A program made the position numbers and the translations under genes. Under the pieces are notes generated by a model that saw only the letters and a program-made list of their open reading frames with translations, was not told the origin of the DNA and searched no databases. From contig JBBDHW010000039.1 of NCBI GenBank assembly GCA_040880805.1, positions 8,817-43,344 on the forward strand: 34,528 nt of DNA. Direction: 5' to 3'. Source of the DNA: Acidimicrobiia bacterium. GTDB taxonomy: Bacteria > Actinomycetota > Acidimicrobiia > IMCC26256 > DASPTH01. Of the stretch, positions 23,457-27,055 are shown in pieces (within the stretch, counting starts at the first letter, position 1; each line of letters starts with the position of its first letter).

Positions 23457-26400
23457 TCAGGCGATGCAGTCGGCGCCGAGGAGGACGCGGAGCTCGGCGA
23501 AGAGGCCGTTGCCCGGGTCGACGAGGAGGTCGTCGGCGAGGCGGAGCACCGTGGTCTTCTCGGGCGCTTCGAGGTGCACGAACACCGGGCTGTCGCCGGG
23601 GTGCTCGGCGAGGATCCCCTTGAGGCGCGCGGCCTTGTCGTCGGTGAGCGCGTGCAGCTTCACCTTGATCCGGACGGGCGGGCCGCCGTCGATCTCGATC
23701 TCGGGGCGGATGACCTCCATCGCCACGAGCTTCGGCGTGTCGTCGCGCAGGTCGACGCGTCCCTTCACGACGACGATGGCGTCGTCTTCGAGGACGTGCC
23801 CGAAGTCGGCCATCGTCTTCGGGAACACCATCACTTCGAGCACACCCGCGAGATCCTCGAGCACGAACGTGCCCATGAGGTCGCCACGCCGCGTGTACTT
23901 CCGCTGAAGCGACGTGACGATGCCGCCGACGGTGCGCAACTCACCCTCACGCGCTTCCCGCAGCTCCGACAGCGTGGAGTCGACGTGCCGGCGCAGCGAC
24001 CGCTCCGCACCCATCAACGGGTGCTCGCTCACGTAGAGCCCGAGCATCTCCTTCTCGAACGCGAGGCGCTGCGACTTCGGGAACTCGGTGTCGGGGATCT
24101 CGACGCGATGCCCCACCACCGCCTCGACCTCGGCCTCACCGGCCGCGGAGAAGAGGTCGAACTGCCCTTCGGCCTCGTTGCGGCGTCGGTCGATCACGGT
24201 GTCGACGATCGTCTCGAACACGTGGACGAGCCCTTGGCGCGGGTGACCGAGCGAGTCGAAGCCACCGGCCTTCACCAGCGACTCGATCGTGCGCTTGTTG
24301 AGCACGGACGGGTCGACGCGATCGCAGAAGCCGTAGAAGTCGACGAACGGACCGGCTGCCTCGCGCGCGGCGATGATCTGCGCGACCACCCCCTCACCGA
24401 CGTTGCGAACGGCCGACATGCCGAACCGGATCGCCGCGTCCTCGGTGGAACCATCGGGGGCGCGGTGCACCGAGAAGTCGGACTCCGACTCGTTGACGTC
24501 GGGCACGAGCACCGCGATGCCCATCTGGCGGCACTCGTTGAGGAAGACCGCGGTCTGGTCCTTGTTGGCTTTGACGCTCGTGAGCAGCGCGGCGAGGTAC
24601 TCGACCGGATAGTTCGCCTTCAGGTAGGCGGTCTGGTACGCGATGAGGCCGTAACCGGTGGCATGCGCCTTGGGGAACGAGTAGTCGGCGAACGGCTCGA
24701 TGGTGTCGAAGATGCGCGTCGCGAACTCGCGGGTGTGCCCCTGCGCGAGGCAGCCCTCGAGGAACTTCGAGCGCTCCTGCGCCATGAGGTCGCGCTGCTT
24801 TTTCGCCGCGGCCTCGCGCAGCGTGTCGGCCTCGCCGAGCGAGTAGCCGGCAAGCCGCTGCGCGACCTGCATGATCTGCTCCTGGTAGATCATCAGGCCG
24901 TAGGTGGGGGCGAGCACCTCTTCGACGTCGGGGTGGTAATACGTGACCGGCTTGCGGCCGTTCTTGCGGTCGGCGTAGTCGGTGTGCATGTTGGTGCCCA
25001 TCGGGCCGGGCCGGTACAGGGCGACGAGCGCGGCGATGTCTTCGAAGCGCGTGGGACCGAGCGAGCGCAACAGCGAGCGCACCGGACCGCCTTCGAGCTG
25101 GAACACGCCCACGGTGTCGCCCCGGCGCAGCATCTCGAAGGTCTTCTCGTCATCGAGCGCCACGTCGTCGATGTCGAACCGCTCTCCGGTCGAGCGTTCG
25201 ATCAGGTCGAGGGTGATCTCGAGCACGTCGAGGTTGCGCAGACCGAGGAAGTCCATCTTGAGGAGCCCGAGCGCTTCGACGCCGTGCATCTCGTACTGCG
25301 TGACGATCGGCGCGTCGTCGACGTTGCCGCCGGCTTCCGGCTTGCGCTGGATCGGGAGGTACTCGGTGAGCGGCTCGCGCGCGATCACAACCGCGGCGGC
25401 GTGGATGCCGTCTTGGCGGCGGAGCCCTTCGAGCCCGCCCGCGACGTCGATCACGCGTTTCGCGTCGGGATCCGTGTCGTAGAGCACGCGCAGCTCGGAC
25501 GCCATCTTGAAGCCGGAGCTGTAACCCTCGACCTCCTCGAGGCAGGCCCGCAACGGCGTATCACGACCCATCACGAGCGGCGGCATCAGCTTGGCGATCT
25601 TGTCGCCGACCGCGTACGGGTAGCCGAGCACGCGCGCCGAGTCGCGCACCGCGGCCCGCGCCTTGATCGTGGAGAACGTGATGACCTGCGCCACGTGGTC
25701 CCAGCCGTAACGCTCGGCGGCGTAACGGATCATCTCGCCGCGGTAGCGGGAGTCGAAGTCCATGTCGATATCGGGCATCTTTTTTCGGCCCGGGTTGAGC
25801 ATGCGCTCGAACAGCAGGTCGTACTTGATGGGATCGACGTTGGTGATGCGCAGGCAGTAGGCGACACACGAACCGGCGGTGCTCCCCCGCCCCGGGCCGA
25901 CTCGGATGCTGCGCGAGCGAGCGTGCCGGTAGAGATCCCAGACGACGAGGAAGTACGCCGAGAAGCCCATCGTCTTGATCACGCCGAGCTCGTAGTCGAG
26001 TCGTTGCAGCACGTCGGGGCCGGGCGACGCGCCATAGCGCTCGGTCGCGCCCTGCAACGTGAGCTCACGGAGGTACGAGTCGTCGTCGTGGCCGGCGGGG
26101 GTGGAGAACGCGGGGAGCCACGAGTTGCCGAACTCGATCTCGACGTTGGCGCGCTCTGCGATGAGCAGCGTGTTGTCGCACGCTTCCTCGTAATCGGCGA
26201 AGAGCCCGCGCATCTCCGCCGCGGTCTTCAAGTAGAACTCGTCGGCGTCGAACTTGAAGCGTTTCGGGTCGTCGAGTGTGGAGCCGGTCTGCACGCAGAG
26301 CAGCGCCGCGTGCGCTTCGGCGTCGTGTCGGTGGGTGTAGTGGCTGTCGTTCGTCGCGAGTAGCGGCGCGCGCAGGTCGCGTGCGAGCTTGATGAGCTGT

Positions 26401-26966
26401 GGGTTGACGAGGGCTTGTTCCGGAAGACCGTGGTCTTGGAGCTCGACGAAGAACGAGTCGCGCCCGAAGATCGACTGGAAGCGATCGACGAGCTCGCGCG
26501 CACCGGTGTAGTCATCGGCGAGCAACGCCTGCGACACGGCGCCACCGAGACAACCCGTTGTCGCGACCAACCCGGAGGCGTGTTGCTCGAGCAGATCGAA
26601 GTCGACGCGCGGCTTGTAGTAGTAGCCGTCGAGGTAGGCGTGCGACGCGACCTTGATGAGGTTGCGGTAACCGTCGTTCGACTCGGCCAACACCGTGAGG
26701 TGGTAGATGTCGTGATCCTCGCGGCGCGGCCGGTCGAACCGGCTCGTGGTGACCATGTAGGCCTCGGTACCGATCACGGGGTTGAGACCCGCTTCGCGTG
26801 CGGCGCGGTAGAAGTCGATGACGCCGTACATGTTCCCGTGGTCGGTGATGCCGATCGCCGGTTGACCGTCGGCTGCCGCGGTGGCCACGACGTCTTGCAC
26901 GCGGGCCGCGCCGTCGAGCATCGAGTACTCGGTGTGCAGATGGAGGTGCACGAACGACTTGGCCAA
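23457..26966 (-). CDS. dnaE: DNA polymerase III alpha subunit, DnaE1 type
   Basis: This is the replicative polymerase subunit, about 1169 residues. It opens with the PHP domain (FVHLHLHTEYSMLDGA), has the catalytic PDIDMDFDSRYRGEM with two Asp near residues 398 and 400, the KRVIDVAGGLEGL... and PLTEYLPIQ palm/finger region, helix-hairpin-helix, and a C-terminal OB domain (GIVTSLQRKYTRRGDLMGTF near 985). The length fits DnaE1 rather than the mutasome DnaE2. I favour TTG 26964-26966 because AAGGGGG lies four bases upstream; GTG 26979-26981 would add five residues but has no ribosome site and falls inside the hairpin. No SOS box is seen upstream, as expected for DnaE1. Confidence 0.96.
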   Translation of the reverse strand: MAKSFVHLHLHTEYSMLDGAARVQDVVATAAADGQPAIGITDHGNMYGVIDFYRAAREAGLNPVIGTEAYMVTTSRFDRPRREDHDIYHLTVLAESNDGYRNLIKVASHAYLDGYYYKPRVDFDLLEQHASGLVATTGCLGGAVSQALLADDYTGARELVDRFQSIFGRDSFFVELQDHGLPEQALVNPQLIKLARDLRAPLLATNDSHYTHRHDAEAHAALLCVQTGSTLDDPKRFKFDADEFYLKTAAEMRGLFADYEEACDNTLLIAERANVEIEFGNSWLPAFSTPAGHDDDSYLRELTLQGATERYGASPGPDVLQRLDYELGVIKTMGFSAYFLVVWDLYRHARSRSIRVGPGRGSTAGSCVAYCLRITNVDPIKYDLLFERMLNPGRKKMPDIDMDFDSRYRGEMIRYAAERYGWDHVAQVITFSTIKARAAVRDSARVLGYPYAVGDKIAKLMPPLVMGRDTPLRACLEEVEGYSSGFKMASELRVLYDTDPDAKRVIDVAGGLEGLRRQDGIHAAAVVIAREPLTEYLPIQRKPEAGGNVDDAPIVTQYEMHGVEALGLLKMDFLGLRNLDVLEITLDLIERSTGERFDIDDVALDDEKTFEMLRRGDTVGVFQLEGGPVRSLLRSLGPTRFEDIAALVALYRPGPMGTNMHTDYADRKNGRKPVTYYHPDVEEVLAPTYGLMIYQEQIMQVAQRLAGYSLGEADTLREAAAKKQRDLMAQERSKFLEGCLAQGHTREFATRIFDTIEPFADYSFPKAHATGYGLIAYQTAYLKANYPVEYLAALLTSVKANKDQTAVFLNECRQMGIAVLVPDVNESESDFSVHRAPDGSTEDAAIRFGMSAVRNVGEGVVAQIIAAREAAGPFVDFYGFCDRVDPSVLNKRTIESLVKAGGFDSLGHPRQGLVHVFETIVDTVIDRRRNEAEGQFDLFSAAGEAEVEAVVGHRVEIPDTEFPKSQRLAFEKEMLGLYVSEHPLMGAERSLRRHVDSTLSELREAREGELRTVGGIVTSLQRKYTRRGDLMGTFVLEDLAGVLEVMVFPKTMADFGHVLEDDAIVVVKGRVDLRDDTPKLVAMEVIRPEIEIDGGPPVRIKVKLHALTDDKAARLKGILAEHPGDSPVFVHLEAPEKTTVLRLADDLLVDPGNGLFAELRVLLGADCIA

Positions 26967-26977
26967 CTCGCCCCCTT

Positions 26978-27007
26978 CCACAGGGATGGGGAAATCCCTG
27001 TGGATAA
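26978..27007 (-). promoter_or_regulatory. dnaE leader hairpin overlapping a perfect DnaA box
   Basis: A 10-bp perfect inverted repeat, CCACAGGGAT (26978-26987) and ATCCCTGTGG (26994-27003) with a 6-base loop, lies directly before the dnaE ribosome site. On the minus strand the bases 27007-26999 read TTATCCACA, an exact DnaA box. The loop on the transcript is TTCCCC, which could pair with the GGGGG of the ribosome site. Whether DnaA or an RNA structure acts here is not known. Confidence 0.5.
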
Positions 27008-27055
27008 ATCACACTGATGTAGTTCAACGAACTTAGCGCACGGCGCGCACGGGTG

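Follow-up and report, generated by a model that had tools for sequence, protein, structure and literature searches.

In mycobacteria McdR has so far been linked to division and drug response, inverted DnaA boxes in the dnaA promoter serve autoregulation, and the control of the amount of replicative polymerase in bacteria is, to our knowledge, little explored. McdR/ResR (Rv1830) is a cell-division regulator of the MerR family in mycobacteria and recognises the motif AATnACAnnnnTGTnATT (PMC9040748, in excerpt). The same excerpts place this motif around the transcription start of whiB2, as shown by EMSA and mutants, describe repression of whiB2 by McdR, and state that mutation of a half-site or of the spacer length abolishes the effect of the motif (PMC9040748). 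Excerpts of a second paper give the motif again and report some tolerance of mismatches (PMC10336103). In the accessible text of the two McdR papers (PMC9040748 and PMC10336103) the term dnaE1 is absent. For DnaA of E. coli, the accessible part of PMC11317965 describes a preference for pairs of boxes 2-3 bp apart.

The main new point of the present work is a predicted McdR-type operator at dnaE and its fusion to DnaA boxes; no earlier report of a fused McdR-DnaA operator of dnaE was found in the part of the open-access literature covered. The locus lies in what we call the window, the whole analysed stretch of 34,528 nucleotides, and carries the following features.

23457-26966, minus strand: dnaE, DNA polymerase III alpha subunit (DnaE domains by Pfam)
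26964-26966, minus strand: dnaE start codon TTG (MAKSFVHLHLHTEYSMLDG), from comparison with the starts of relatives
26971-26979, minus strand: Shine-Dalgarno-like GGAAGGGGG of dnaE, read from the sequence
26974-26982, plus strand: second, imperfect DnaA-type box CCTTCCACA, inverted with respect to the first, core TCCACA at 26977-26982
26977-26987, minus strand: 3' arm of an 11-bp inverted repeat, in dnaE-strand reading
26994-27004, minus strand: 5' arm of the same inverted repeat, in dnaE-strand reading
26999-27007, minus strand: exact DnaA box TTATCCACA, base 27007 being common to box and palindrome
27007-27024, no strand: McdR-type palindrome AACTACATCAGTGTGATT, 18 bp, one mismatch to AATNACA-N4-TGTNATT
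27030-27035, minus strand: probable -10 hexamer TAAGTT, 5 nt before the palindrome

A GTG at 26979-26981 falls inside the inverted repeat of the leader, and the TTG was preferred as the start of dnaE. A short inverted repeat, AGTTC-GTT-GAACT, is present at 27024-27036; it covers the -10-like hexamer and shares one base, the first, with the palindrome. For comparison no second genome was available from the genus or the family of the source. At the level of the order the DnaE protein was matched in 56 of 58 genomes, source genome included, and fifty dnaE leaders of up to 300 nt each, again with that of the source, were read.

The original prediction had described a perfect 10-bp hairpin directly before the ribosome site of dnaE, overlapping an exact DnaA box. 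The overlapping box was confirmed, and the inverted repeat is real, with a stem of 11 bp and not 10; its 6-nt loop is TTCCCC, and the claimed complementarity of the loop to the ribosome site holds by inspection for CCCC and the GGGGG of the Shine-Dalgarno sequence. The palindrome, which is the main element, had been missed; it starts at the last base (27007) of the interval then noted. The exact sequence TTATCCACA occurs three times in the 3.49-Mb assembly and its reversed pattern not at all, while within the window, with up to one mismatch, there is one match against 0.82 expected, which is unremarkable alone. Inverted repeats with arms of at least 11 and loops of 3-10 number two in the window, against none or one in each of ten Markov controls, and the predicted RNA fold of the leader is unexceptional (z -1.78 over 141 nt, z -1.29 over 61 nt). 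Taken singly, repeat and box are not far above chance in the window, and the RNA fold is ordinary; conservation must decide, and it is conservation, not the statistics within the window, that marks the dnaE leader as a region that matters.

The two DnaA-type 9-mers of the window, the exact one and the weak CCTTCCACA, are 16 bp apart, against the 2-3 bp favoured by DnaA of E. coli, with their cores 22 bp apart. The dnaA-dnaN region of the source carries the same type of box (TTGTCCACA and TTATCCACT), and the exact TTATCCACA at dnaE belongs to this type. Another exact site of the TTATCCACA type with an inverted partner is present elsewhere in the source genome (L032:1480-1510), flanked, as judged by eye, by genes for a secreted coiled-coil/glucosaminidase-like protein and an acyl-CoA-ligase-like protein.

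The consensus AATNACA-N4-TGTNATT was obtained from a profile refined on the 50 dnaE leaders of the order, before the published McdR motif was seen, and it equals that motif at all defined positions; the published pattern is found in the window with one mismatch. In a count independent of the profile, 46 of the 50 leaders carry the palindrome with at most two mismatches (15 exact, 21 with one, 10 with two), a 93-nt leader whose palindrome is cut by the contig end (L050) being scored as a miss. The same was true of 0.3% of Markov-shuffled leaders, and the reversed pattern never came below three mismatches. Genome-wide, at up to one mismatch and outside the AT-rich family f11, 53 of 55 genomes of the order have 1-13 sites and two have none, while the reversed pattern gave no site in 51 of them and one site in four. 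Within the AT-rich family not every genome has more palindromes than its control (in G023 there are 20, against 29), and a looser pattern, TCACA-N4-TGTGA, proved of little use (19 sites in the source genome against 11 in the control). A candidate McdR was identified in a single-contig genome of the order, G007, where a MerR-type protein matches a McdR core used as query with an E value of 1e-36. Its gene lies in a context of FHA, FtsR-type MerR, bifunctional nuclease (BFN), MerR and, by eye, gcvT; the cluster FHA-ftsR-BFN-mcdR, without gcvT, is described in print for Corynebacterium. The mcdR signature had no match in the fetched loci of the order that were scanned.

DnaA-type boxes accompany the palindrome in 35 of the 46 leaders, following it in 28 and preceding it, as an inverted module, in 7; the remaining 11 have none nearby. 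Where boxes follow, the first TCCACA core begins 1-2 nt downstream of the palindrome in 26 of 28 cases, and in all seven inverted modules the nearest core ends 1-2 nt before it, so that the first one or two bases of the 9-mer DnaA box are also bases of the palindrome. The two orientations occur even within one genus (G026 and G027). At least two TCCACA/TGTGGA cores are present in 34 of the 50 leaders, against 0.56% of shuffled leaders, and 30 of the 50 contain convergent pairs. Consecutive cores are spaced by 9-12 or 20-24 bp in 55 of 57 instances, the other two being 32 and 34, and in 27 of the 57 the core starts are 11-12 bp apart. Of the 39 leaders with boxes after the palindrome or without boxes, 33 have a TANNNT hexamer 0-12 nt upstream of it (control 3.9%); none of the seven inverted ones does, and several of these show, by eye, a -10-like sequence after the module and before the start codon. 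From this arrangement we infer that the palindrome sits near the expected transcription start of dnaE, behind a -10-like hexamer; for the window this would put the start near 27023. The whole-turn spacing of the boxes and the fixed geometry fit proteins bound to one face of the DNA, not a conserved RNA hairpin, and the control of the polymerase gene by DnaA, one of two possibilities raised at the outset, is backed by the conserved multiple cores, their helical phase and the fixed geometry in the leaders of the order.

Our model starts from what the sequences show: the elements, how they are conserved and arranged, where they lie with respect to the -10-like hexamer, and an mcdR orthologue in a single genome of the order. 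In this model binding by McdR and DnaA, the sign of each effect and their competition are deduced from sequence. At the dnaE promoter the feature probably forms a composite operator on the DNA, made of a McdR/ResR-type site for repression and an adjoining pair of DnaA boxes. A MerR regulator of the McdR/ResR type would bind the palindrome around the transcription start and repress dnaE, as McdR does whiB2 in mycobacteria. DnaA would bind the adjoining inverted pair of boxes, the first of which overlaps the palindrome by 1-2 bp, and the two proteins would either compete for this position or affect each other there. DnaA on the fused boxes may alter the hold of McdR on the palindrome; as the sites have bases in common, exclusion is likelier than cooperation. 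That box and palindrome keep a constant spacing in either orientation suggests that DnaA would act by way of McdR and not on RNA polymerase itself.

Sixty-five further leaders were taken from named records, mostly labelled as Acidimicrobiia, Acidimicrobiales or Actinomycetes MAGs, this set excluding six duplicates of the order set, three loci without a usable start and six loci of other actinobacteria. The palindrome is present with at most two mismatches in 44 and absent in 21, and a TCCACA core follows it by 0-4 nt in 18 of the 44, which makes the palindrome the wider element. The six leaders of Asanoa, Rhodococcus, Streptomyces and Nocardia have no palindrome (4-6 mismatches). In a sample of the phylum an exact copy was found in 104 of 296 genomes. 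Twenty of these exact sites were fetched and judged by eye: five lie upstream of whiB-like genes, two upstream of Rv0996-like genes and 13 beside other neighbours. The whiB-like genes are a type of McdR target named in the published excerpts. Rv0996-like genes are another published target type.

Within the source genome, two sites have at most one mismatch, at dnaE and between nrdR and nrdJ; at most two mismatches are found at 12 sites, against none in the control, which include a whiB2-like gene and the crgA region and several of which are inside coding genes. Between nrdR and nrdJ the palindrome is present with up to two mismatches in 29 of 30 regions. In these intergenic regions (L130-L159) it is often doubled, with a shift of 14 bp between the two imperfect copies, and the same 14-bp tandem is seen in three whiB2-like leaders (L111, L113, L117). 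A whiB2-like gene was confirmed downstream of the palindrome in all 15 loci of that group, source included (14 by signature, one by Pfam). Other sites lie upstream of recA (four sites in three genomes of the order), recO (three genomes), dnaB (two copies in one genome only, G050), and mreB-like and bldC-like genes (two genomes each); the identity of RecA, RecO, DnaB, MreB and CrgA was checked in one representative each, and the BldC model matched below its cut-off. The survey of neighbourhoods covered 101 distinct sites of the order, AT-rich loci being left out, and not all are near such genes, many being at genes unlinked to replication or division. Palindromes also recur past the 3' end of Ku genes (L128, L161, L172), and as the palindrome lay beyond the Ku 3' end in the five loci checked, Ku, which its neighbourhood had suggested as a target, was removed from the list of targets. 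At one site of the source genome (L349:1501-1535, contig C21) a two-mismatch palindrome directly adjoins a LexA-type GAACGCACGTTC. The occurrence of the palindrome at dnaE, nrdJ, whiB2-like genes and some recA, recO and dnaB genes suggests a regulon of replication and division.

It is unlikely, but has to be weighed, that the McdR-type site alone regulates dnaE and that the boxes titrate DnaA or mark the locus with no effect on transcription. Boxes are found less widely than the palindrome, which occurs in 46 leaders of the order, 35 of them with boxes, and in 44 leaders of the further set, 18 of them with an adjoining core; the 11 boxless leaders of the order and the low share of adjoining cores in the further set indicate that DnaA is not essential to the role of the palindrome. 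Moreover, box cores within 60 bp of a palindrome are found at all ten sites of the crgA neighbourhood (CrgA signature in nine), and in the six distinct loci with both stops recognised (L351:1501-1560 on contig C26 of the source genome, L103, L104, L106, L169 and L173) this composite is flanked by the stops of two convergent genes, the partner of crgA being a small gene, with no obvious promoter. The composite is therefore not always a promoter element, and that at crgA is possibly a reservoir for DnaA. In G007 the crgA-locus palindrome is about 37 kb from dnaA. Against boxes without effect at dnaE stand their constant distance of 1-2 nt from the palindrome in both orientations and their rarity within 60 bp of the palindrome elsewhere (recA 0/4, whiB2-like 1/14, nrdJ 3/30), with both dnaB copies of G050 as a further place of co-occurrence.

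The second possibility raised by the original prediction, that the hairpin works at the RNA level, as a translational switch or stability element in the dnaE mRNA whose loop pairs with the Shine-Dalgarno sequence, is very unlikely and was rejected on geometry, module inversion and lack of conservation of the stem. The 11-bp stem does adjoin the Shine-Dalgarno sequence, and the centroid of the fold contains it. Complementarity immediately inside and outside the cores is also mildly above expectation (15/30 against 9.3 expected and 20/44 against 12.4), at two of nine positions and with permutation fractions of 0.011 and 0.006, uncorrected for the number of positions or for relatedness; this extra complementarity beside the cores could reflect the symmetry of protein sites. 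However, the stem of the convergent pairs (44, in 30 leaders) varies from 6 to 13 bp and their unpaired middle from 0 to 28 nt, some pairs thus being loopless, leaders with cores have from one to seven of them, helically spaced, and in seven leaders the inverted module lies before the inferred -10; the fold z-scores given above are weak. Across the relatives no conserved stem with compensatory changes was seen: stem, loop and number of boxes all differ, leaving a weak, uncorrected signal of symmetry. The hairpin most likely arises incidentally, from two DnaA-type boxes that stand in opposite orientation.

That another regulator binds the palindrome, for example an orthologue of BldD, is scarcely probable. 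A BldD-like protein is present in 51 of 58 genomes of the order, some matches being weak, that of the source has PF21179 and resembles PDB 2ewt, and the half-site TNAC/GTNA is common to the BldD box and the palindrome; yet the box TNAC-N5-GTNA has a 5-bp spacer against 6 in the dnaE palindrome, none of 30 bldD leaders (330 nt scanned) has the palindrome even with three mismatches, and the McdR motif is, by contrast, identical at every defined position, so BldD was rejected as the binder. NrdR palindromes are a known feature near nrd genes. Also rejected were LexA (27 of 27 recognised lexA leaders, from 30 loci, with GAAC-N4-GTTC and none with the palindrome at up to two mismatches), the NrdR box (a different NrdR-like palindrome also being visible by eye between nrdR and nrdJ in L130-L132) and FtsR (whose motif in print differs from the palindrome).

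Going beyond the composite operator itself, we put forward tentatively that in Acidimicrobiia the fused operator might serve as a transcriptional checkpoint that makes the supply of polymerase depend on the division regulator as well as on the initiator, with DnaA and McdR mutually exclusive at a site of about 45 bp, and that the composite at crgA might be a DnaA reservoir, not a promoter. If the composite operator is read correctly, dnaE and the ribonucleotide reductase gene would have the most regular McdR sites of the order, McdR would share the dnaE site with DnaA, and initiation, dNTP supply, polymerase supply and division would be joined in one regulon.

The boxes at dnaE have a counterpart in the dnaA upstream regions of the order (L070-L099), where convergent TCCACA...TGTGGA pairs are present in 24 of 26; the gaps are 2-3 and 14-15 nt at dnaA and 3-6 and 13-18 at dnaE. 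Unlike dnaE, 24 of these 26 regions lack the palindrome at up to two mismatches. Like the E. coli double boxes described in the excerpts of PMC11317965, the dnaE cores of the order are in helical phase; unlike those tandem boxes, the window has one convergent pair with cores 22 bp apart. The palindrome itself resembles the McdR/ResR operator of mycobacterial whiB2, with 18 bp and a 4-bp spacer and a place there at the transcription start, and as in mycobacteria the whiB2-like genes of the order also carry it. In distinction to the mycobacterial McdR operator, sites in the order are found at dnaE and nrdJ, with recA, recO and dnaB added in some genomes, and, unlike the operator of mycobacterial whiB2, the palindrome at dnaE is fused to DnaA-type boxes.
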